64,000 bases of DNA, taken from contig NZ_CP037423.1 of assembly GCF_007754155.1 (NCBI RefSeq), positions 7,808,938 to 7,872,937 on the forward strand. The letters are read 5' to 3'. The position numbers were made by a program, and so were the translations under genes. The notes under the pieces are model-generated. The model searched no databases. It was not told the origin of the DNA and worked only from the letters and a program-made list of their open reading frames with translations. Below are positions 1 through 13,663 of this stretch, piece after piece. Every line of letters begins with the position of its first letter. Position 1 is the first letter of the stretch. The stretch is from Stieleria neptunia (GTDB taxonomy: Bacteria > Planctomycetota > Planctomycetia > Pirellulales > Pirellulaceae).

Positions 1-1027
1 TCGAATTCAGTTCGGGACTATACGGCGGAAGATGATAAACCAGCAGCCCACGCTCTGCCCAGCGTTCGATCGATGCTTCAAAAGCTCCGCTGGTGTGGCA
101 AGATGCATTGTCGAGGATGACCACCGTTGTTTGGTCAATCGTCTCACAAAAATCATCCATGATTTCAATGACCGTTTGCGTGTTGACGTACCCTTTGTGA
201 AGATAGGTATGGGTGGTTCCATCTTGATGCTCAAAGCCAAGTGCCTGAACCGTCGCCCCATGGGCGCCGGTGACTGGCACATCGGTCCGTTCGCCGATGG
301 GAAGCCATCCGTATGGCACCACGCCCTTAAGCGAAAATCCCGCTTCGTCAAAGTATACGACATCCAGTTCAGGTTCATTGAGCAACTCGGCGAGTTCCTC
401 TTGAGCCAACCGGAAAGCCTTTTCGTCTCGTTTTTTCCGCAGGCTGCGCCGAAACCGCTTCCAGCTCAAATTGAATCGTCGGGCGTAACGACGCAGCGAA
501 TGTCGGCTGATCGATTTGCCGGTCCGTGTTCGCAAACGCGACAGGACTGTGGCAGGCCGGGAGGGAAATTGCCGCAACAAATCTTTGAGGATTTGCTCTT
601 CCTGTTCATTGAGCTTCCTCGGTCCGCCTGGTCGCTTTTCGTCCAGCAGGGCGTCTGGTCCGTCTTGTTCAAAGTGTTTGATCCAAGCTCGCACGCTGTC
701 TCTACTGACACTAAGAATATCGACGATCTGCTCAATTTCGTATTGAGCATCGCTCAGAAGAATCGCGTGTGCCCGTATTCGTGTGTAATGGTTTGGATGC
801 TGTTTCCAAAGCTCAATCAGACGGTCACGTTGCTGCTGGTTCGTGATTTTCGCGAAAACGGTTGCAGGTCTTGCCATGGTAAGTCTCCCGTGATTGTCGG
901 GAGGCACCGACCTTGCCAGGCCCGTCCGACGACCGGACAATTAGCTAGCAAAAGAACGAACCGCGCCCATCGTGACAAACCTGCAAAAGCCTTGCCAATT
1001 TCCATGAACTACACATGCTCACGTGCT
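1..1027 (-). mobile_element. IS630-like insertion sequence, partial (left edge of window)
   Basis: One end of an IS630/Tc1-like element is visible; the other end lies beyond base 1. The end is placed at 1027 because the host helicase frame reads normally up to the TA dinucleotide at 1028-1029 and then stops one base later, and this family inserts at TA and duplicates it. Read from 1027 leftward the element starts AGCACGTGAGCATG, then has about 150 bases of leader before the transposase start at 877. The leader contains a short inverted repeat, GTCC and GGAC, around 925-945. The second terminal repeat cannot be checked here. Confidence 0.75.
2..877 (-). CDS. IS630 family DDE transposase, 3' end outside window
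   Basis: Cut-and-paste transposase of the IS630/Tc1-mariner superfamily; 292 residues are visible from an ATG at 877. An N-terminal helix-turn-helix (about residues 30-70, with 'ILSVSRDSVRAWIKHF') binds the element ends. The DDE_3 catalytic domain follows, with the first Asp in 'VVYFDEAGF' (D177), the second in 'VVILDNASCHTSG' (D256), and 'LPPYSPELN' at the window edge. The third acidic residue normally follows this last motif, so it and the final helices should lie just outside the window. No stop or frameshift is seen in the visible part. The gene reads in the same direction as the helicase it interrupts. Confidence 0.9.
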   Translation of the reverse strand, partial: MARPATVFAKITNQQQRDRLIELWKQHPNHYTRIRAHAILLSDAQYEIEQIVDILSVSRDSVRAWIKHFEQDGPDALLDEKRPGGPRKLNEQEEQILKDLLRQFPSRPATVLSRLRTRTGKSISRHSLRRYARRFNLSWKRFRRSLRKKRDEKAFRLAQEELAELLNEPELDVVYFDEAGFSLKGVVPYGWLPIGERTDVPVTGAHGATVQALGFEHQDGTTHTYLHKGYVNTQTVIEIMDDFCETIDQTTVVILDNASCHTSGAFEASIERWAERGLLVYHLPPYSPELNS

Positions 1028-3468
1028 TAGGTATTGCCTTTGCAGGTCAAATAGCCGTCAATCCAATGCCGCGTGATTCGTTTGAGCTGACCGAACAAGT
1101 GCAGCTCCGGTTCATCGCCGGGATCGCGATATTTGGTGTAGAGTAATCGTTTGGTAACGTGAAATAGAACAGTCGATTTCCGAGTGTCCTCGAGGTGTTC
1201 GAGCGTTAGATCAACGCCTTCACCAATGATCCCTTCGGTGCGGGTGATGGACGGACCAACGAGATCGGGCGTCAGTACCAATTCGGAGTCCTCATTAAAG
1301 CTTGCTTCGAGACGTTCTTCTGGCAATTCGACACGATAGCCTTCCACGCGCGGAAAACGGATCTCCAACACATCGCGATCCGGGCGGACGGATTTGACTT
1401 GAATCGTCTCTCGCGGCTTGGCCGGTTTGACTTCGACAGGGGTTGTTGTGAAATCAAAGGGGATGCCAAGGATGTCGGCGTACTCGGTGTTGAATCTGCC
1501 TTTTTCATTCAAGTCATAGGATTGACGGCGAAGGGCGCGGCCGATGACTTGTTCGCAGAGCAACTGAGTCCCGAACGCGCGAACGCCCAGGACGTGTGTC
1601 ACGGTGTTCGTATCCCAGCCCTCGGTCAGCATGGACACCGATACCACGCAGCGAATGGATTCGCCGAGACGATCGACTTTGCCGACCGTGTTCATGACTT
1701 CGCGAAGTAGGTCCGAATCCGTTATTGACTCGCCATCGCGAATGTTACCGGTGCGTTGAACGATGTCTTGTCGGAATCGTTCGATCTCGTCGCCGGCAAG
1801 ATTGCGGAAATTCTTGTCCAGAGCGTCGCCCGATTCGAGTTGCCGACTGTCGATCAGCAGGGTGCGTGGTCGGGCGAGTCGATTGCCGTGTTCATCGAAG
1901 TTACGGAACAGGGCCAGCCGTCCGTTTTCAAGTGTGGTTGAGCCATCGGCATGGATTCGCTCGAACCCAGAGATGTAGTCGTGAACCAGCTTTGAGGTTG
2001 ATGTGTTGTTGCAAACGACAATGAAACAGGGGGGAACTCGAATGCCGGCTTCTTGCCAAAGATCGTATGTCTTTTCGTAGTGACCGTAGAGTGCTTGCAG
2101 TGCGCTCTCGAGCAATTTGGGAATCGCCAATGGGTCGTATTCTTTGTCGCCCGCTTTCGCACGCCCCTTCTTGGGCATCTTGCTGCGAATGTGCTCCCAC
2201 AGCGTTCGGAATTTTGGCATGTCGCCGCCGGGCACGTTGTCGGCGACGGGAACCCGCGGCAATTTGACGATGCCGCACTCGATTGCGTCCATCAGCGAAA
2301 AATCGCTCATCGTCCATGGGAAAAGAGTGCCCTCGAGATAGCCGCTTCCGCGAAGAAAGAATGGTGTCGCGGAGAGGTCGATGACGTTCATCACGCCGAT
2401 CTTGCGATTGACCGCTTCAATACCCGATATCCAAAGACGCGCGGCCTCATTGTTTTGCTCGGCTTCTTTCTTTTCGTCGCCCTTTAGCTTTTCATCCTCG
2501 TCAGGCTGCGGTTTCTCGCGGTAGCAATGATGAGCTTCGTCGTTCAGGACCAAGATGTTCTTCATACCCATCAGTTCGGGCATGACCCGTTGCAGCATTT
2601 GGCCCTCGGTTTCCAGCGTCTGCATCTTCTCGCCGCGCCAGCCTTCGAGTGCACCGCGGGTACCCTTGGCGAGGTCAATCCGCTCACGCAGCTTAAATGC
2701 GTGATAGTTGGTGATGACGATTTTGGCTTTTTGCAGATCAGCGGCCATGTCGCTCGGGATCAGTTCGCGAGTGTCGTAGTAACTCTCCGGATCGTTTGGC
2801 AACAGCACGCGGAGGCGATCACGGATCGTGATGCCCGGCGTGACGATCAAGAACCCCTTGGTGAATTTCTTGCTGCTGGGGCGACGAACGGCGTTGATCG
2901 TTTGCCAGGCAACCAACATTGCCATGACGGTCGTCTTACCGGCACCGGTGGCAAGCTTCAGCGCAAGCCGCATGATTTCCGGATTGGCTTCGGCGTTCGC
3001 ATTGGCAAGGTGAGCGAGGAACTTTTTGCCATTCGCTGACTTTGGGGCGACTTCCGTCAGCCAGATGGCGACTTCCACGGCTTCGACCTGACAGAAGAAG
3101 GGCCGGATCCCCTGAAAATCGTGGTGTCGCCAATGCTGGAGCAGCCTCGCGGTCTCAGGGGTAACCTGCCACTCACTCGAGTTGGGCCATTTTCGCCACT
3201 CGTCTATGTGGCTACGCAACTCATTAATGATGGGGATTTCATCGTACTTTTGATTCTCAGATGACAGGCCGTCGTCAGCGCCGAGATTGAGTTCCTGCTG
3301 TTGCTTTGACTGCTTCTGCTTCTTCGTTTTGGGGATCGGTGTAATGAATTCGGCCCGACGACGATTCCCGATGATCTTTTCGGTCGGCTGACCATTCAGC
3401 AGCTCCCAATGCATCTCGGGATAGTCGTAGGGCGAATTCAGTATCGGATCGTCAAAGAACTTGGACAT
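1027..3468 (-). pseudogene. Type III restriction (Res-like) DEAD/DEAH helicase, truncated by IS630
   Basis: Superfamily 2 ATP-dependent helicase/translocase of the type III restriction-enzyme R-subunit kind (resembles the BPTD_3080-type family). From the ATG at 3468 it gives 813 residues: Walker A 'ATGAGKTT' at about 173-180, 'LNDEAHHCYRE' (DEAH box) near 310, motif III 'IDLSATPFF' near 365, and a helicase C domain with 'VSMLTEGWDTNTVTHV' and 'LLCEQVIGRALRR'. The ATG at 3468 is preferred over 3537 because the extra 23 residues look non-coding. The protein stops at 'GYLTCKGNT', exactly where the IS630 element begins, whereas relatives continue for roughly another 100-200 residues with a C-terminal or nuclease-like part. 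The missing 3' piece should lie left of the window, beyond the IS. Both ATPase domains remain, so a truncated product could still be made. Confidence 0.85.
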
Positions 3469-3491
3469 CAGGAATTCAAAGCGAGCATTTC

Positions 3492-3520
3492 TTGACCGTA
3501 TAGTGACGGAAGCATACACT
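3492..3520 (+). promoter_or_regulatory. Sigma70-type promoter for the XRE regulator
   Basis: A TTGACC -35 box at 3492-3497 and a TACACT -10 box at 3515-3520 are separated by 17 bases, 38 bases upstream of the regulator's ATG. It sits in the 90-base gap between the divergent helicase and regulator genes. Confidence 0.5.
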
Positions 3521-3525
3521 CTGCA

Positions 3526-3535
3526 GGGGGCCCCC
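3526..3535. promoter_or_regulatory. Perfect palindrome, candidate operator of the XRE regulator
   Basis: GGGGGCCCCC is a perfect 10-base palindrome placed just after the -10 box of the proposed regulator promoter and between the two divergent starts. Its position would suit autorepression and control of the helicase. It is short and could be chance. Confidence 0.3.
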
Positions 3536-3557
3536 ACAATCAGCGGAGTGCCGAGAA

Positions 3558-3881
3558 ATGCAGTTCAGTGACAAGGTGCGTGAACTACGCGTTTCGCGTC
3601 ACCTGACCCAGCAACAGTTGGCGGAGCAAATGGGCGTAAGTGCTTCGTACATTTGCAAAGTCGAAAACGACGGTTTGCAGTTCGGTGACTATCCATCGGA
3701 GACCTTCATCCAAAGGCTAGCAGCAACACTCAATGCGGACGAATATGACTTGATGATGCTTGCTGACAAGGTCCCCGAATCAATCAGGATCCGGATTCGT
3801 GAGCGCCCATCCCTCTTCAAAGCGATCGCCAAACTCGATGACCAGAGTTTGGATCGGTTGACGCTGCAGCTAACCGATTAG
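3558..3881 (+). CDS. XRE/Cro-family helix-turn-helix regulator
   Basis: A 107-residue DNA-binding regulator. An HTH_3 domain covers residues 5-66, with 'LTQQQLAEQMGVSASYICKVE' forming the turn and recognition helix. The insert 'GLQFGDYPSETFIQRLAATL' is typical of regulators that travel with restriction-modification and other defence genes. The C-terminal 40 residues form a charged tail with no enzymatic motif. The gene is divergent from the helicase across a 90-base gap carrying a promoter and a palindrome, so it probably controls itself and the helicase operon; whether it also controls the downstream ATPase cassette, about 430 bases away, is unknown. Confidence 0.85.
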   Translation: MQFSDKVRELRVSRHLTQQQLAEQMGVSASYICKVENDGLQFGDYPSETFIQRLAATLNADEYDLMMLADKVPESIRIRIRERPSLFKAIAKLDDQSLDRLTLQLTD

Positions 3882-4307: not shown

Positions 4308-6290
4308 ATGACTCAGTGGATTTTCGCACAATTGTCCGGCGCGGCGGTGCGTCGCGATCCGAACGAAACGGAACTCTTCAAGACCGAACAAGCAGGCGAA
4401 GACGAATACGCCGGGACTGATGCGTTGGTCCGTGAAGTGTTGCAAAACTCGATCGACGCAGGGAGTGGCCATGGGCCGGTTCGTGTTCGTTTTGCCCTGC
4501 ATCCGCATTCCTCCCTTCCCGACGACGACCGTCTTGCGACCTATTTTGCGCGACTGCAACCAGGCTTGGTGTATCGCGATGTGGAGTTTAACGGATCGGG
4601 GGTTCCTCAGCTGAATCATGGCTACCTCGTTTGTGAAGACTTTGGGACTCGGGGACTGGACGGTGATCCGCTGCTGGCAACTGATCCGCAGGAAGGTAAC
4701 CCTGACTGCCAGGATTTTTTTTGGTTCTGGCGAAACATCGGACGCAGTGGGAAGACTGGTGATGATCTTGGGCGATGGGGATTGGGAAAAACGGTCTATC
4801 GTGCCGCGAGCCGTGTCGGATGCATGCTCGGTTTAACGGTCCGCAAGTCGGACGGTGCACGTCTGCTGATGGGGCAAGCTGTACTACGCATTCACAAATA
4901 CAACGGAACGGAATTTGCGCCGGAGGGTTTCTGGTGCAGCGGATACAACCAAGCGGAAACACCGTTGCCCATCAGTCACGAAAAGGACTTGGTGCAATTC
5001 GCAAGCGAATGGAATTTGACGCGTACCGACGAGCCCGGTTTGTCGGTCGTTGTTCCCTATGTCGCCGATGAGCTGAAGGCGGAAAGCATCTTGCGACTGG
5101 TTGCGGTCAACTTCTTCGTGCCGATTCTGAAGCAAGAGTTGATCGTCGATGTGGCTGGGCCGGGACTTCCTGGCCGGAACTCCGAATTCCGGCTCGATCA
5201 TACCTCCATCGATCACGTTTGTGGCAAGCTCAGCTGGACTGGCAAAGCGAGACAAAAACTAAGCAATCCGCCACCGCTTGATTTCGCGCGCGACTGCTTG
5301 GCGAACGCCGATCAAGCGGTGCCGACAAATGTGCTTGGCGAGTCACGCGTTCCGGTTATGGATGAGACTGCGTTCTCGGCCGCAACACTGGCGGAGCTTC
5401 GCAAGCGATTTGCCCTTGAGCAGCTGGTCGCGATTCGAGTTCGTGCGGCCTTGCCCAAAAAGGTCGGTAAAGCTGAAATCGGGGAGCTAACCGTTTTTTT
5501 GCAACGCACGCCTGTCGCCGACCGATACGAGAGCTACTACGTCCGCGAGGGGATGACGATCACTCGGCTCAATTCCAAACCATCCATGCGCGGCACAAAG
5601 GGACTGGTTGTTGTCGATCCTGGGCCGCTCGCATCTCTGCTGGGTGACACCGAGGGTCCGTCGCACATCAGTTGGGATACTTCGAATGATGAACGTCCGA
5701 ATCGGGTATGGAAGACCTGGAAAGGACGAGTGAAGTTTTTCGTCAAGATTATCGATGGACTGGCTGAGTTGCTTACACCACCTCCAGACAAAGTAGACTT
5801 TGACTTACTCAGTGACTTCTTTTCGATTGAGCAGGTTACGGCACCCCAGCCGAAACGAAAGCCGAAGGAGGGCGGTGAAAGGACTAGGGATTTTGACCCG
5901 CCTGATCCAACGCCTCACTGGTACCGAATGCAGGGAAAAACGGGCGGCTTCACGATCTGTGATTCATCCAGTCTGCCAACTCCCGAGGGAGCGATTCTGC
6001 GGATCTCGGTCGCATATGATCTGCCGAGCGGAAATCCAATGAAGCACTGGAGCAAATTCGACTTTGATTTTCGGAAGCCCAAAGCTTCAAGCCTGAATTT
6101 TAAGCTCGCGAACGTGAAAGCCACCGCGAAGGCGGGGAATGTCATCGAAATGGAGATCGCGGATCCGGACTTCAGCCTGACCGTGTCAGGATTCGATATC
6201 CATCGCGATTTGATTGTGCGAATCGATGAAGTCGAACTGGAGGAATCGCAATTGGATCAATATGCAAACTCTGGAGAGGTCGCCACATGA
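4308..6290 (+). CDS. GHKL-fold ATPase (HSP90/histidine-kinase-like), putative defence component
   Basis: A 660-residue cytoplasmic protein whose first 170 residues carry the ATP-binding motifs of the GHKL fold: N box 'LVREVLQNSIDA' (E43, N47), G1 box 'CEDFGTRGL' (D111, G113) and lid motif 'GRWGLGKTVYRAASR' (residues 155-169). There is no kinase dimerisation domain, receiver domain or membrane segment, so it is not a sensor kinase. The middle (about 220-500) has no motif I recognise. A charged linker near 510-540 (rich in K, R, P) leads to a beta-rich C-terminal module (550-650). The gene overlaps the next one by 4 bases (ATGA), implying translational coupling. GHKL ATPases without kinase parts are recurrent in bacterial conflict systems (MORC/GyrB-like), which fits the neighbouring HNH nuclease and restriction helicase. 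The biochemical role is inferred. Confidence 0.75.
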   Translation: MTQWIFAQLSGAAVRRDPNETELFKTEQAGEDEYAGTDALVREVLQNSIDAGSGHGPVRVRFALHPHSSLPDDDRLATYFARLQPGLVYRDVEFNGSGVPQLNHGYLVCEDFGTRGLDGDPLLATDPQEGNPDCQDFFWFWRNIGRSGKTGDDLGRWGLGKTVYRAASRVGCMLGLTVRKSDGARLLMGQAVLRIHKYNGTEFAPEGFWCSGYNQAETPLPISHEKDLVQFASEWNLTRTDEPGLSVVVPYVADELKAESILRLVAVNFFVPILKQELIVDVAGPGLPGRNSEFRLDHTSIDHVCGKLSWTGKARQKLSNPPPLDFARDCLANADQAVPTNVLGESRVPVMDETAFSAATLAELRKRFALEQLVAIRVRAALPKKVGKAEIGELTVFLQRTPVADRYESYYVREGMTITRLNSKPSMRGTKGLVVVDPGPLASLLGDTEGPSHISWDTSNDERPNRVWKTWKGRVKFFVKIIDGLAELLTPPPDKVDFDLLSDFFSIEQVTAPQPKRKPKEGGERTRDFDPPDPTPHWYRMQGKTGGFTICDSSSLPTPEGAILRISVAYDLPSGNPMKHWSKFDFDFRKPKASSLNFKLANVKATAKAGNVIEMEIADPDFSLTVSGFDIHRDLIVRIDEVELEESQLDQYANSGEVAT

Positions 6291-7063
6291 TCAAGCGAGT
6301 CAATTCTCTTGGCAGAAAACGTGTTTCACGAGACTGCGTCGCGATTGCGGTTGATGACGGTGACCCTAGATCATTTACCGCGAACATCGATTTCGGTGAA
6401 CACGTCTGGGATCCCAACGCTTCAGTCGTCATGGAGGCAACTTGCGCTGGATCTTCGCTGGTTCGCAGATATTCCTGCGGCACCGTCGGTCAATTGAAGC
6501 AACCAAAGCAATTACCGCTCAGCGATCTTCATGGGCATAATGTCTTTTTCTCACTGAAAATCATCGACAGAAGCGAGCACATTGGCCGACTACTTGGTGT
6601 CGCGGAGAATATCAAACCGCTCACAACCGGCAAGCAAACCGTTAGCGGCCGCAAGGGGATTTTGCCGGTCGAGAGAGCCCCTCTGGGTCAGGAATTGTGG
6701 AAGCTGGAATTCCGCGACCACGATGTTTACCTGCTTGTAAACGAGAATGTGCCCGGACTGTCCGAGAGTATCCGATCCGATCCTGTATTCTTCTCGCTGA
6801 TCTATCCACAAGTCATGCGTCAAGTTCTGACTCGAGCGATCAACGAGGGAGCCGAACCGGACGAAAACGACGACCGTTGGCCGGTACTCTGGCTGGCGTT
6901 TGGGCGCAAGCTTCACCCCGACCACGAAGATCCGCCACCGCCCGATGACACGGAAGCCGCCGAGGAATGGACCGAAATTGTTGTGCAATCATTTTGCGAC
7001 TTGCACGAACTGCGATCAAAGTTTGTGAGCTCAGGGTACGCGTCGGGTTATGGAGACGAGTGA
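6287..7063 (+). CDS. Unknown protein, second gene of the GHKL-HNH cassette
   Basis: A 258-residue soluble protein with no signal peptide, membrane segment or recognised catalytic motif. The N-terminal half looks beta-rich, and the C-terminal half has a predicted helical stretch ('VFFSLIYPQVMRQVLTRAINEGAE', given here by position, about 165-190) and an acidic, proline-rich segment ('DHEDPPPPDDTEAAEEW', near 217). Its ATG overlaps the stop of the GHKL gene by 4 bases, and the next gene starts 3 bases after its stop, so the three are almost certainly co-expressed. It may be an adaptor or recognition subunit; that is only inferred from position. Confidence 0.7.
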   Translation: MIKRVNSLGRKRVSRDCVAIAVDDGDPRSFTANIDFGEHVWDPNASVVMEATCAGSSLVRRYSCGTVGQLKQPKQLPLSDLHGHNVFFSLKIIDRSEHIGRLLGVAENIKPLTTGKQTVSGRKGILPVERAPLGQELWKLEFRDHDVYLLVNENVPGLSESIRSDPVFFSLIYPQVMRQVLTRAINEGAEPDENDDRWPVLWLAFGRKLHPDHEDPPPPDDTEAAEEWTEIVVQSFCDLHELRSKFVSSGYASGYGDE

Positions 7064-7066
7064 ACG

Positions 7067-7780
7067 ATGCATGTACGGAGATTCAATCCATCTGGAATCG
7101 AAGCATTTCGCAAGTTTCTCAGGACATGTCGAGACGCACCGTCAACGCCAACGCCGTGGGAACTGCTGGAAAGCGATGAATTCACGTCGCTGACAACGGA
7201 AACCATTGAGATCGACTCGAGATCGTTCGATTCGAGGCGAGAAGCAGCTGAATACCTTCATGCAAAGTTGGGGATCATTCGAGCAGAGTCATTGCGTTAT
7301 GACGCCGGTCTGTGGACTTGGCTTTCTCTTTTCTACTTTGACCAGATTTGCCCTGCGGTGGCTGGCAATCGCAAGGTCAGGAACGATTACACCTACATCT
7401 ACATGCCGCGTGAGTCTCGCTATTTCTATCGGCACCTGCTGTTTGTCTCGTGGTACGTACAGCACATCGCTCCGAGTCACAACCGCCTATTGCTGGATGG
7501 CCCAGTGAGTCAACTGGACAGATTCACAGCAGAGGTGATAAAACGGCTGTACTTAACCAGGATTCCAGCGGTGTTCGAAGTGCTGGACAGGGTCTATTGG
7601 GACGAATCGACGAAGAGGGCGTTCAGCGGCGTCACAAGTCCAGGAAAGGTTAAAGCCGGCGACCTACTCCATCGGTTTCCAATCCGTATCCGTCAGCTCG
7701 AAAAAACCTATGACTTACAAAGCCTTACAGCCGATCAGCTAATCGAATTGCTTGGTAGTGAGTTTCAGCAGATTCGCTAA
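7067..7780 (+). CDS. DUF6339-like protein, third gene of the cassette
   Basis: A 237-residue, mainly helical soluble protein. The segment 'GLWTWLSLFYFDQICP' (about residues 83-98), followed by 'YIYMPRESRYFYRHLLF' and 'HNRLLLDGP', resembles the DUF6339 family as I remember it, which is uncharacterised. The C-terminal third carries a 'LHRFPIRIRQLEKTYDLQSL' stretch. No nuclease or ATPase motif is seen. It starts 3 bases downstream of the previous stop (TGA ACG ATG), which makes it part of the same operon. Family assignment is tentative; existence as a gene is well supported by frame length and coupling. Confidence 0.65.
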   Translation: MHVRRFNPSGIEAFRKFLRTCRDAPSTPTPWELLESDEFTSLTTETIEIDSRSFDSRREAAEYLHAKLGIIRAESLRYDAGLWTWLSLFYFDQICPAVAGNRKVRNDYTYIYMPRESRYFYRHLLFVSWYVQHIAPSHNRLLLDGPVSQLDRFTAEVIKRLYLTRIPAVFEVLDRVYWDESTKRAFSGVTSPGKVKAGDLLHRFPIRIRQLEKTYDLQSLTADQLIELLGSEFQQIR

Positions 7781-7939
7781 TCCGTGTAAACGGTAGCGGC
7801 CAAGGTGCCTGGTTACGCCACTCTGATAGTCCGTGCGTTGGAACCAGCGGGAATGGTTAGCAGAGTAACTTTTGTAGTCCTATCGTCGGTATGTTGCGAT
7901 TCAGCCTATTGCAACTGCGTTATCGCAAACGAATTCAAT

Positions 7940-8590
7940 ATGACTGCGCCAATCAAGAAAGCTCGCAAACCGGAAATCATCACCGTCAGTGACCACATCG
8001 CATGGTCATACGCGAATCTTGCGCGTGCCGACGCGGCACTTCAGGGCGGGTGCAGGAGCTACCAACGAACCCATCACATCATTCGAAGCAGGCTTTTTAA
8101 CGGACTGAAAAATGGCACCATGGCGATCCGATCGATGTACGACGACGAACGCCTCAAAATGACTTTGCCACAAGCTTGCTGCTACTGTGGCGCGACCGAC
8201 AACTTGTCCATCGATCACCTGATCCCTCGGGTTCGAGGTGGCGCTGACGATGCAGATAATTTGGTTTGGGCGTGCCGCAAATGCAATAGTTCGAAACAGG
8301 GTCGCGACATGCTCGAGTGGATGTCGAAGAAGGACGGGTTTCCTGCGATTCTACTTCTTCGGAGATACCTCAAACTGGTGTCCCGTTTCTGCGACGAAAA
8401 CGGTTTAATGCCAACGCCATTGGCAGAAGCACTACAGCTTGACCTGCCCTTTGATTTATCCCTCATCCCCCATTCGTTTCCGCCGCTATCGGAGCTTACG
8501 CTCTGGATCTACCCGGAATCATCGGTTGACGTCGGAGAAATCCCTCACGAGACGACTGGAGTCGAACTCCCAACGGATCAGGGTGACTGA
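7940..8590 (+). CDS. HNH endonuclease
   Basis: A 216-residue protein with a complete zinc-bound HNH (McrA-like) nuclease domain: C80-x2-C83, 'IDHLIPRVRGG' (D92, H93), 'DNLVWACRKCN' (N107, C112, C115, N116). The HNH core sits centrally; the first 70 residues and last 90 have no motif I know. The ATG at 7940 is chosen because the in-frame extension to 7805 gives an implausible Cys-rich leader. A 159-base gap separates it from the DUF6339-like gene, so it may be in the same transcription unit or have its own promoter. It is the probable effector of the cassette, cutting nucleic acid when the GHKL module signals; this is inference. Confidence 0.85.
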   Translation: MTAPIKKARKPEIITVSDHIAWSYANLARADAALQGGCRSYQRTHHIIRSRLFNGLKNGTMAIRSMYDDERLKMTLPQACCYCGATDNLSIDHLIPRVRGGADDADNLVWACRKCNSSKQGRDMLEWMSKKDGFPAILLLRRYLKLVSRFCDENGLMPTPLAEALQLDLPFDLSLIPHSFPPLSELTLWIYPESSVDVGEIPHETTGVELPTDQGD

Positions 8591-11018: not shown

Positions 11019-11348
11019 ATGGTTCGCTTGCCAGACCCCGCCGTTCGCCAACGTTGGTCGCGGCTGATCCAACTTCACGAACAGTCCGATCTTGCGGTCT
11101 CCGAATTTTGCGATTTGCACGGAGTCTCCACCGCATCGTTTTATCGATGGCGACAAAGGCTGCAGGGCGACGCCGATCAGAGCGACGCGTTTCTTGCCGT
11201 GCAGATCGAGCAGCCGCGTCCCCAAATCGGCGGCACCACTGTCCGCTTTCCCTGTGGCACGCAGATCGAGCTTGCTTCCTGCGATGCCAACAGCCTGATG
11301 ATCATCGTCGACCGGTTGGCACCACAACCAAGCGAGTTGCAGCAATGA
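11019..11348 (+). CDS. tnpA: IS66 accessory protein TnpA
   Basis: A 109-residue IS66 Orf1 protein. The N-terminal half is a helix-turn-helix ('QLHEQSDLAVSEFCDLHG', then 'VSTASFYRWRQRL', residues about 16-50), needed with TnpB for transposition. The C-terminal part ends in 'LMIIVDRLA', as in other IS66 TnpA proteins. The ATG at 11019 is chosen because an AGGAGG ribosome site lies 6 bases upstream; an in-frame upstream start at 10986 lacks one. Its stop overlaps the tnpB start (ATGA at 11345-11348). Confidence 0.9.
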   Translation: MVRLPDPAVRQRWSRLIQLHEQSDLAVSEFCDLHGVSTASFYRWRQRLQGDADQSDAFLAVQIEQPRPQIGGTTVRFPCGTQIELASCDANSLMIIVDRLAPQPSELQQ

Positions 11349-11692
11349 TCGCGCTACCAACCACTGGCGGCATTTTTCTCTACGCCAAGCCGACCGACAT
11401 GCGAAAGAGTTTCTCGGGCCTGGCTGGCATCGTGCGAAACGAGCTAGGCAAAACGCCAAATGACGGAAGCTTGTTCCTGTTTATCAATCGACGCCAGGAC
11501 AAACTCAAAGCACTCTATTGGGACCGCGATGGAATGGCGGTGTGGTACAAAAGTCTGGAGCAAGGCACCTTTGAAAGAATCAGGCAAGATGGCGAGGCGA
11601 GCGTCAAGCTCGACGCAGCCGACTTGGCGATGCTGCTTGGTGGAATCTCAATCGAAAATGCCAAGAGACGTAAACGGCTCAAGGCAGCGTAA
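11345..11692 (+). CDS. tnpB: IS66 accessory protein TnpB
   Basis: A 115-residue IS66 Orf2 protein. It shows the family signature 'IFLYAKPTDMRKSFSGL' near the N-terminus, then 'LFLFINRRQDKLKALYWDRDG' (about residues 42-62) and 'WYKSLEQGTF'. Its exact biochemical role is unsettled, but it is required for IS66 transposition. The start codon overlaps the tnpA stop, so translation is coupled. A longer reading frame in the same phase begins at 11054 inside tnpA, but that part is a shadow. Confidence 0.92.
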   Translation: MIALPTTGGIFLYAKPTDMRKSFSGLAGIVRNELGKTPNDGSLFLFINRRQDKLKALYWDRDGMAVWYKSLEQGTFERIRQDGEASVKLDAADLAMLLGGISIENAKRRKRLKAA

Positions 11693-11729
11693 GCTGCCGC
11701 GGAAGCAGTGACGACGGACCACACTTGGG

Positions 11730-11766
11730 AGCAAGTTTTCTTCGGCGAAGAAAACTTGCTTTTTTT
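11730..11766 (+). terminator. Hairpin with T-run between tnpB and tnpC
   Basis: A perfect 14-bp stem (11730-11743 with 11747-11760, loop GGC) is followed by six T residues: a strong intrinsic-terminator shape. It lies inside the IS, 37 bases after tnpB and about 60 bases before tnpC, so it could limit transposase expression. Confidence 0.75.
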
Positions 11767-11824
11767 CTTGCCCAGACGGTGATTTGCTATTGCGCGATTT
11801 CGAGAAGCTTTTAGTCTTCTGTAC

Positions 11825-13663
11825 ATGGACAAGCTCAAGCAACTTCAACGCGAAATCGAAGCCCTGCGTGCGAAAAACAGCACGCTTGAGTCCGTCAATG
11901 AATCGCTTGCTGCCACCAATGCGTCACTCACCAACAAAGTCGATTCACTCGCTGTAAACAACCAATCGCTTGCTACCACCAACGAGTCTCTCGTCCAAGA
12001 CGCCAAGTCACTCGCTGCGGCCAAAGAGGACCTTGAATCGAAGAACGAGGACTTACGAAAGCAACTCTCCAAAAAGCAAGACGAACTCGACGCTTTGATC
12101 CGTCGCATCTTTGGCCGCCAGAGCGAACGCTTTGAAGACGACGACCAGCTGAAGTTCGAATTCGCCAGTCAAGCAGAAATCGACGACGCTCGTGAAGGCA
12201 TCAAGCAGGCGATCGAAGAAAATGATCGAGCCGGCAAACGCAACAAGCCGCCCAAGCGACGCAAGCGTGAAGAGCGTTTTCCCGACAGCCTGCCGCGCAA
12301 GGAAGTGATTGTCGACTTAAGCGACGAAGAAAAAGAAGGCTTGGTGCGGATCGGAGAAGACGTGGTCGAATCGGCACACTTCACCCGGGGTGCGGCCTAT
12401 ATCATTCGAAAGATCTTCCCCAAGTACGTTCACCCGGAGGATCCCCGCGCCGGTATTTTGCAGGCCCCACGCCCCGCGGCGCTGATTCAAGGCGATCGCT
12501 ACGACACCTCATTCGCTGCCTCGGTCATTGCCAATCGACTTGGCTACCATCTGCCGATCTATCGTCAAGAGGACATGTTCGCCGAGTGCGGCCTTTACCT
12601 TTCACGCAGTACGCTACTAAACCTTCAAGAAGCTGCCGAACGCGTGCTCCGGCCGTTCGTGCAGTGGCTTGCTGACTTGGTTCGCACCGACAGCTGCATC
12701 GGAAGTGACGACACGTCGATCCGCTTACTGTTGCCGCAAGACATTCCCGAAGCACGCGAGGACGATCCGAAGGGTCGGCGTGCTGCGGAAGTTTTTGCAG
12801 CAGCCAAGTCGAAAGGGCTCAAAAGCATCACGGCAAAGATGTGGGCCTACCGAGGCGTTCATATTCCAATCAACGTGTTTGACTTTACGGTCAGTCGTCA
12901 CCGTGATGGGCCGGACCAATTTTTAGTCGATAGCGAGTATACGGGAACTCTATTGGGAGACTGCTACGGAGCGAACACGGGGATTTACATACGATCAAAC
13001 GGATTGATCGTTCATGCCGCTTGCGCGGCCCATGCGCGTCGGAAGGTGGAAGCTGCGCTAGACAATCACGCGGAGCATGCAAAGCATTTACTTGGATTGT
13101 TTCGATTGATTTATGATGTCGAAGACGAAGCTCGAGAGTTGTCGCCAGCAGAACGCTTGACACTTCGCCAAAAGCAATCGGCTCCCCTTTGGGGCCAGAT
13201 GCGCGAGTACCTCCAGATGAAGATGATGGACGTGCTGAGTAGTGACAAGATCAGCGATGCGCGAAGTTACATCTTGAATCAATGGCAAGGACTGACGGCT
13301 CACCTTGAAGACGGGGAAATCCCGATCGACAACAACTCATGCGAGCAGCTGATGAAGCAAGTAGCACTGGGTCGCAAGAACTGGCTTTTTCTTGGCAGTC
13401 TTGCATCGGGTTATCGTACGGCGACATTGATGACGGTCGTCAGCAGCGCGATACGAAACGACCTGGATGTGGCGGCGTACTTGGAAGACGTACTCGACCA
13501 GCTTCTCGCAGGCAGTCGCGACTATGCCGCGCTGCGTCCTGACGCATGGGGGACAGCGCATCCGGAGTCGATCCGGGCCCACCGGCAAAAGGAGCGTGAA
13601 GCTGACAACATCCGTCGAGAGCGAGATCGGCTTCGCCGCCGCCTCGCCCGCCTGGATCAGTAG
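11825..13663 (+). CDS. tnpC: IS66 family transposase TnpC
   Basis: The 612-residue DDE transposase of the element. The N-terminal 85 residues form a coiled coil with irregular Ser/Asn-rich repeats ('NESLAATNASL', 'NQSLATTNESL', 'KSLAAAKEDL'), followed by 'LDALIRRIFGRQSERF', typical of the IS66 leucine-zipper region. A basic linker ('RKRREERFP') leads to the zinc-finger-like region and the catalytic DDE_Tnp_IS66 domain (about 200-520), with 'DDTSIRLL', 'GDCYGANTGI' and 'IPIDNNSCEQLMK' near the third acidic residue. The C-terminal tail is Arg-rich. Length is slightly above the usual 500-550. The ATG at 11825 lies downstream of a hairpin terminator. Confidence 0.93.
   Translation: MDKLKQLQREIEALRAKNSTLESVNESLAATNASLTNKVDSLAVNNQSLATTNESLVQDAKSLAAAKEDLESKNEDLRKQLSKKQDELDALIRRIFGRQSERFEDDDQLKFEFASQAEIDDAREGIKQAIEENDRAGKRNKPPKRRKREERFPDSLPRKEVIVDLSDEEKEGLVRIGEDVVESAHFTRGAAYIIRKIFPKYVHPEDPRAGILQAPRPAALIQGDRYDTSFAASVIANRLGYHLPIYRQEDMFAECGLYLSRSTLLNLQEAAERVLRPFVQWLADLVRTDSCIGSDDTSIRLLLPQDIPEAREDDPKGRRAAEVFAAAKSKGLKSITAKMWAYRGVHIPINVFDFTVSRHRDGPDQFLVDSEYTGTLLGDCYGANTGIYIRSNGLIVHAACAAHARRKVEAALDNHAEHAKHLLGLFRLIYDVEDEARELSPAERLTLRQKQSAPLWGQMREYLQMKMMDVLSSDKISDARSYILNQWQGLTAHLEDGEIPIDNNSCEQLMKQVALGRKNWLFLGSLASGYRTATLMTVVSSAIRNDLDVAAYLEDVLDQLLAGSRDYAALRPDAWGTAHPESIRAHRQKEREADNIRRERDRLRRRLARLDQ

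Follow-up and report, generated by a model that had tools for sequence, protein, structure and literature searches.

A GHKL ATPase gene triad of Stieleria neptunia forms a diverged sister branch of the phage defence candidate PDC-M33 and is a probable part of a restriction system

The window analysed here is a stretch of 64,000 nucleotides from the planctomycete Stieleria neptunia (contig NZ_CP037423.1, positions 7,808,938 to 7,872,937), which is part of one 11-Mb contig. Three genes follow one another near its beginning on the plus strand: gene A (4308..6290), which encodes a 660-aa GHKL ATPase that is paraMORC2-like and related to PDC-M33A, gene B (6287..7063), which encodes a 258-aa distant relative of PDC-M33B-type proteins, and gene C (7067..7780), whose 237-aa product is a diverged relative of DUF6339 and PDC-M33C. 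A preliminary description, made from the letters of the DNA, had seen in them the first three members of a four-gene anti-phage cassette, coupled by a 4-base overlap and a 3-base spacing. All three genes are intact open reading frames (ORFs) at the coordinates it gave, and the coupling is as described, A (end 6290) and B (start 6287) sharing the four bases ATGA and three bases separating B (end 7063) from C (start 7067). The finding is real and its context resembles restriction, though what was found is a new branch of an already known candidate kind, not an unplaced system.

None of the three proteins matches a Pfam, NCBIfam or PHROGs family at E ≤ 1, and profile searches for relatives of solved structure produced nothing convincing, including no convincing Protein Data Bank (PDB) relative of gene A. 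The GHKL boxes previously read in gene A (E43/N47, D111-x-G and GxxGLGK) were all found, as E43, N47, D111-x-G113 and G155xxG158-L-G160K161, and E43, N47, D111, G155, G158, G160 and K161 are invariant in an alignment of 35 sequences in which G113 varies. The protein had also been said to have no kinase parts, with which the analysis agrees since no Pfam family is matched at the above threshold. ParaMORC families were described from restriction operons, and paraMORC2 in particular consists of GHKL+S5 ATPases of restriction–modification operons that are marked by an ExxxH signature late in the S5 domain (Iyer, Abhiman and Aravind 2008, PMC2292703, available portion of the text). Such a signature, formed by E449 and H453, is present in all 35 sequences of the window's gene A family, and all 19 PDC-M33-type sequences examined have an E and an H at the corresponding positions; it would lie in the C-terminal part of an S5 domain. 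A pattern search for the MORC-specific GhXhhpXXRhl motif found it in 0/35 and 0/19 of these sequences, respectively.

Structure prediction gives gene B an immunoglobulin/fibronectin type III (Ig/FN3)-like β-sandwich at about residues 9–121, followed by C-terminal helices. Foldseek and VIA-align retrieved only common β-sandwich domains, the Foldseek matches all being weaker than E 0.001, and barely covered the helical half. Gene C is predicted to be mostly helical and had no structure match by either program, which does not in itself prove a new fold. An R-x4-H pattern seen by eye on the gene C alignment (R118/H123) made a HEPN-type RNase a candidate, which was set aside because R118 varies, the distant set introduced below has no H matching H123 and there is no Foldseek match. 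The closest relative of the window among the fetched loci is that of the planctomycete TBK1r, with 97% identity in gene A. Between the two, the ratio of non-synonymous to synonymous divergence (dN/dS) is about 0.07 for A, 0.07 for B and 0.12 for C, synonymous divergence (dS) being 0.18, 0.15 and 0.94, respectively. The excess of dS in gene C sits mid-gene (7200–7700) between closely identical flanks, and this segment is probably a mosaic that arose by recombination with a diverged allele.

The relationship of the triad to PDC-M33 is a distant one. PDC stands for 'phage defence candidate' and denotes a predicted class (PMC11514479, available text). Gene A matches PADLOC PDC-M33A directly (E 2.5e-14, best stretch residues 38–283). 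The PADLOC models PDC-M33B and PDC-M33C have no match at E ≤ 1 in the window's genes B and C, and they miss B and C in all four triads tested of the window's branch (the window, L007, L046 and L056; L numbers designate fetched loci). Conversely, A, B and C of three distant triads (L058, L065 and L076) match PDC-M33A, PDC-M33B and PDC-M33C with best E values of 1e-64 to 1e-220, and their gene C is Pfam DUF6339. Profile–profile comparison of the window family with the distant set, in whose triads B and C were recognised by size and place, with PADLOC comparison in those three, and of whose 23 triads 19 were used (the four haloarchaeal ones, in L071 and L072, being left out), gave probabilities of 100% for gene A (E 1.3e-43), 75.9% for gene B (E 2.3e-5) and 91.7% for gene C (E 7.7e-7), as against 0.07% and 0.12% in the swapped controls, B versus C and C versus B. 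The window branch and the distant rows fall on opposite sides of a gene A tree that covers 59 proteins and not all loci, the haloarchaeal distant row excepted, and the 40-row group containing the window has an SH-like approximate likelihood ratio test (SH-aLRT) value of 98, in a tree that is midpoint-rooted and has long branches. As the homology of B and C is visible only by profile–profile comparison, the triad is filed as a diverged sister branch of PDC-M33, on the strength of its sequences, and not as a member.

Pfam PF19866 (DUF6339) likewise has no match at E ≤ 1 in gene C of the window, L046 or L056. Two gene C relatives, P0150 and P0189, do carry it, and together with the profile match to the distant set, whose tested members are DUF6339, they bear out the preliminary description's 'DUF6339-like' in the sense of a diverged relative. 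Its failure to place the set among the named systems it knew, by contrast, has to be amended, in view of the relationship to PDC-M33 and to the published class paraMORC2. No mention of DUF6339 or PDC-M33 was found in the literature searched, which left subscription papers mostly outside.

Homologues of gene A number at least 777 at E ≤ 1e-3 (with candidates limited to 7996), of which 120 were listed. A profile scan of genome contigs with the gene A alignment yielded 80 loci, 55 close and 25 distant, in which a simple script took the longest ORFs as genes; several of these loci are short contigs, where absent neighbours mean little. By models of A, B and C, 40 of the 55 close loci hold the three genes in this order and on a single strand, which takes their association beyond chance, the commonest spacing in these triads being a 4-base overlap. 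Several of the other 15 are short contigs or incomplete copies. Gene-neighbourhood conservation, the check proposed at the outset for the cassette, is thus found for A-B-C, which travel together, but fails for the four-gene set; a conserved multi-gene set, a GHKL ATPase and restriction–modification contexts are what survives of the cassette, not the membership of the HNH gene. Planctomycetes, alpha-, beta- and gammaproteobacteria, Nitrospirota, Bacteroidota, Chloroflexota and two archaea are among the hosts of close loci. The window's B and C models match nothing in the 25 distant loci, where 23 of 29 A matches (in 20 of the 25) nevertheless precede, on their own strand, a gene of 220–360 aa and one of 200–330 aa. 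Within the family the distribution of gene A is sporadic (11 of 119 genomes at E ≤ 1e-20, two of these being short remnants), and a tblastn search with gene A gave no match at E ≤ 1e-5 among 50,697 phage records.

Planctomycetes also contain short pieces left over from gene A (L053:2128-2739, L054:9962-10333, L093 and L094), one of them with a piece of B. Judged by size and position, two triads are present in each of L071 (9875-17741), L072 (2129-13769) and L077 (9914-19378), and they face each other in two of these, L077 and the haloarchaeon L071. L031 is a contig labelled as planctomycete whose A groups with alphaproteobacterial copies and which has kept Dcm, Vsr and EcoRII, possibly the outcome of lateral transfer or of mis-binning.

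Four gene clusters recur beside the triad, named by Pfam from one member each: C5 DNA methylase, Vsr, EcoRII C-terminal and HhH-GPD. Outside the crown planctomycetes, a C5 methylase is found in 40 of 54 loci (20/29 close and 20/25 distant), Vsr in at least 13/29 close and at least 4/25 distant loci, HhH-GPD in 3/29 and 6/25, and EcoRII in 6/29 and 1/25. These figures for Vsr are minimum values, searches of whole genomes having revealed PF03852 next to the methylase in L030 and L034, where the gene-calling script had missed it. In L046, L048 and L082, among others, Dcm and then Vsr precede the A-B-C triad, which is set off from Vsr by a small ORF or a gap, and the basal planctomycete pair L020 and L022 also retains the C5 methylase. 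Whole genomes were searched for chosen, non-random subsets of loci (30 asked and 29 searched for PF00145; 20 for Vsr). PF00145 was found in 20 of the 29, in 19 of which a C5 methylase lies inside the fetched locus (counting L057, where gene A is incomplete); as to the other ten genomes, nine have none, and that of L061 has one on a different contig. Some of the loci that lack a C5 methylase carry other restriction genes, namely a D12 adenine methylase (L073), GmrSD (L060) or a PLD-ResIII helicase (L061), and in L073, which is from Bacilli, the D12 gene begins 3 bases downstream of gene C. HhH-GPD glycosylases mend damage caused by cytosine methylation. Since this holds for Vsr as well, the operons can be read as modification (M) plus repair (V) plus A-B-C, in which the triad would stand in place of the restriction (R) component.

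The best explanation, to which we assign a probability of about 0.6, is that A, B and C are the ATP-driven effector module of a restriction–modification-like defence, in a planctomycete branch of PDC-M33/paraMORC2. Its observed basis consists of the ATPase motifs, the kept order and coupling of the genes, and the C5 methylases and V genes to which relatives are linked, while an effector role in restriction or defence is suggested by linkage, motifs and sporadic distribution taken together. Because relatives are linked to C5 methylases and the corresponding V genes, the triad is likely the R part of such operons, and it probably belongs to a restriction system directed against viruses. In the mechanism that we envisage, gene A would dimerise upon ATP binding and clamp or loop DNA in the manner of MutL and MORC, B and C would serve as its partners, either in target recognition or as the seat of the nuclease, and DNA methylated by the host would be spared while other DNA is attacked, methylation presumably providing self-protection. 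As no C5 methylase was found in the window's own genome, the partner of its triad must be another methylase, or none is needed; candidates are the N6/N4-type methylase encoded about 7.5 kb upstream and an unlinked protein of the Eco57I type.

Several observations weigh against this explanation. No nuclease motif was recognised in genes A, B or C, and the S5 domain in which the ExxxH signature would lie is itself putative. C5 methylase, Vsr and HhH-GPD occur in 0 of the 26 crown planctomycete loci, 11 of which (L009, L011, L014, L015, L016, L018, L021, L025, L038, L053 and L054) were assigned to the crown by similarity and title rather than by the tree, and no C5 methylase is visible in 14 of the 54 non-crown loci either. 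The window's genome has no PF00145 match, so that the methylation logic is not demonstrated for the window's own copy, and the crown genome L028 has a Vsr match without one to PF00145. In some loci, whose neighbours were scanned in part, another restriction enzyme may lie near the triad. Plasmids, searched by tblastn with gene A, gave a single match among 72,556 records at E ≤ 1e-8 (Rhizobium, 24.9% identity), and the literature searched contained no anti-phage experiment on the triad.

It could be, instead, that the triad is a private mismatch-repair helper, in which A would act as the MutL of Vsr or HhH-GPD in mending T:G mismatches at 5-methylcytosine. The Vsr and HhH-GPD genes counted above in non-crown loci agree with this, as does the link between MutL and Vsr in very short patch repair recounted by Iyer, Abhiman and Aravind (2008; PMC2292703, available portion). 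However, neither V gene is seen in the loci of several triads that do have a C5 methylase, the crown planctomycete loci show no C5 methylase, Vsr or HhH-GPD, and many methylases would be left without a recognised restriction partner, all of which makes a dedicated repair role quite unlikely. That the window's copy is an orphan, retained although its methylase was lost and it has ceased to act in restriction, would account for the genome's want of a PF00145 match, and the neighbouring restriction helicase, which does not reach the end of its model and adjoins a transposase, lends the idea some colour. Yet the three genes are intact and evolve with a dN/dS of only 0.07 to 0.12, and the crown branch has persisted without a C5 methylase in its loci over long divergence, so that we regard decay of this sort as distinctly improbable.

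Very improbable, in our opinion, is a signalling or transcription-control device in which the GHKL protein works with, or restrains, a sigma-70-like protein. It is suggested by sigma-70 domains fused to gene A in 11 of the 120 listed among the at least 777 homologues (P0010 to P0051), and in the fusion L007:8489-11944 both PF04545 and PF04542 score above their cut-offs; a 780-aa Sigma70_r4 protein also lies 3 bases upstream of gene A in the Bacilli locus (L073:7559-9898). On the other side, 109 of the 120 listed relatives have no sigma part, neither does the window's gene A or any of seven proteins scanned in its region, sigma matches lie beside A in just 2 of 80 loci, and the N-terminal domain of the L007 fusion matches type IIG restriction enzymes (E 5.8e-9). 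The original four-gene cassette, with the HNH protein as the nuclease of the system, is largely refuted and retains hardly any likelihood. The HNH gene is on the same strand 159 bases downstream of gene C and is intact in both the window and TBK1r, and it matches PF01844 (E 2e-12), with H93 correctly placed in the numbering of a 216-aa protein. Its start is most likely at 7940 and not at 7805, since an in-frame stop in TBK1r cuts the upstream extension, and the gene has its own spacer and start. Among the 119 family genomes it occurs in three, the window's own and two that have no gene A, and it is absent at E ≤ 1e-15 from the ten other genomes that do; nor was any homologue found at E ≤ 1e-3 in the fetched loci outside its own genome and TBK1r. 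It can therefore not be counted as the fourth gene.

The crown planctomycetes deserve separate comment. Other restriction genes appear among their neighbours, of which a minority was scanned in crown loci other than those named here: L007, L019 and L024 have an SNF2-PLD helicase together with an Eco57I methylase, L005 has a HIT-ResIII-S24 helicase (its PLD match being under the cut-off) with homologues in L006 and L011, and L023 has DEAD and SNF2 helicases. The N-terminal domain of the L007 fusion is common to the Eco57I methylase of the same locus. One might imagine that crown planctomycetes rewired a C5-linked, MutL-type module by dropping the C5 methylase and V gene and by joining some of the ATPases to sigma-70 domains with a type IIG N-terminus, the clamp then finding its target through promoter-like DNA, or through an adenine methylase and a PLD helicase, rather than through cytosine marks. 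We hold this to be unlikely, but if true it would mean that the targeting part was swapped on an unchanged A-B-C core.

Two further genes precede the triad in the window, an XRE gene (3558-3881) and, on the minus strand, a helicase (1027-3537) that matches NCBIfam NF046055 (BPTD_3080) with 1122 bits over positions 2–788 only of the 970-position model. Both had been taken for signs of a defence island around the cassette; they are indeed present, but they look like a separate restriction island. Apart from the window's own, TBK1r is the only fetched locus with homologues of either at E ≤ 1e-3, and they were rejected as parts of the triad on this ground. In TBK1r the helicase is broken into short frames (the matching piece has 218 aa). 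Upstream in the window's own genome lie a DDE_3 transposase (L095:18790-19500), which adjoins the BPTD_3080-type helicase lacking the model end, and GmrSD_N, N6_N4_Mtase and AAA/DUF4435 genes. By their order, the helicase would group with the latter three beyond the transposase, and the incomplete match of the helicase would agree with an insertion sequence having interrupted a restriction island. The Res-like helicase and the N6_N4_Mtase lie outside the triad, whose genes match no Mod or Res family, so it has no type III restriction components. Downstream, two ORFs at 11054-13663 are presumably IS66-type transposition genes.

Should the preferred explanation of A-B-C as a restriction effector be right, the long-predicted but little-tested MutL/MORC relatives of restriction operons would gain two recurring companion proteins, the triad would be the restriction part of its Dcm–Vsr operons, and PDC-M33 would be extended to a branch whose B and C the PADLOC models missed in the four triads tested. 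Prokaryotic paraMORCs also bear on the origin of the eukaryotic MORC silencing ATPases, and since the operon is compact and can be moved to a laboratory host, the question is open to experiment. Among known systems, there is a likeness to Mza, in that the sigma part of the fused relative in L007 matches PADLOC MzaA (E 1.7e-13), although no MzaA match was found in the seven proteins scanned in the window's region. The Mza defence system also has a MutL-like ATPase. BceSIV of Bacillus cereus is a restriction enzyme stimulated by nucleoside triphosphates (NTPs), with a large subunit bearing NTPase motifs and a second subunit of the PD-(D/E)XK type. The BceSIV paper is cited beside the paraMORCs in PMC3710099 (available text). 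GHKL-Shedu, represented by VcSduA and linked to paraMORC3, resembles the triad as a GHKL ATPase tied to anti-phage restriction, and changes in its ATPase and in its nuclease each abolished defence; it differs by having a DUF4263 nuclease of its own, unlike gene A with its lack of Pfam matches (PMC12137116, available text). There is also a likeness to paraMORC2, gene A having the GHKL motifs and an invariant ExxxH without the MORC motif, and the triads having C5 methylase and Vsr neighbours and, in some loci, helicases; gene B, gene C, the fixed triad and the sigma fusion are not described in the available portion of PMC2292703. The remaining one is PDC-M33 (PADLOC-DB 2.0.0), from which the window branch differs in that PADLOC models miss its B and C, the two sets lie apart in the gene A tree, its crown planctomycete loci have no cytosine methylase and sigma fusions occur in it, but with which it shares three adjacent genes of similar lengths in the order A-B-C, a direct match of A to PDC-M33A, profile–profile matches of all three proteins to PDC-M33-type triads and the C5 methylase neighbours seen in 20 of the 25 distant loci.

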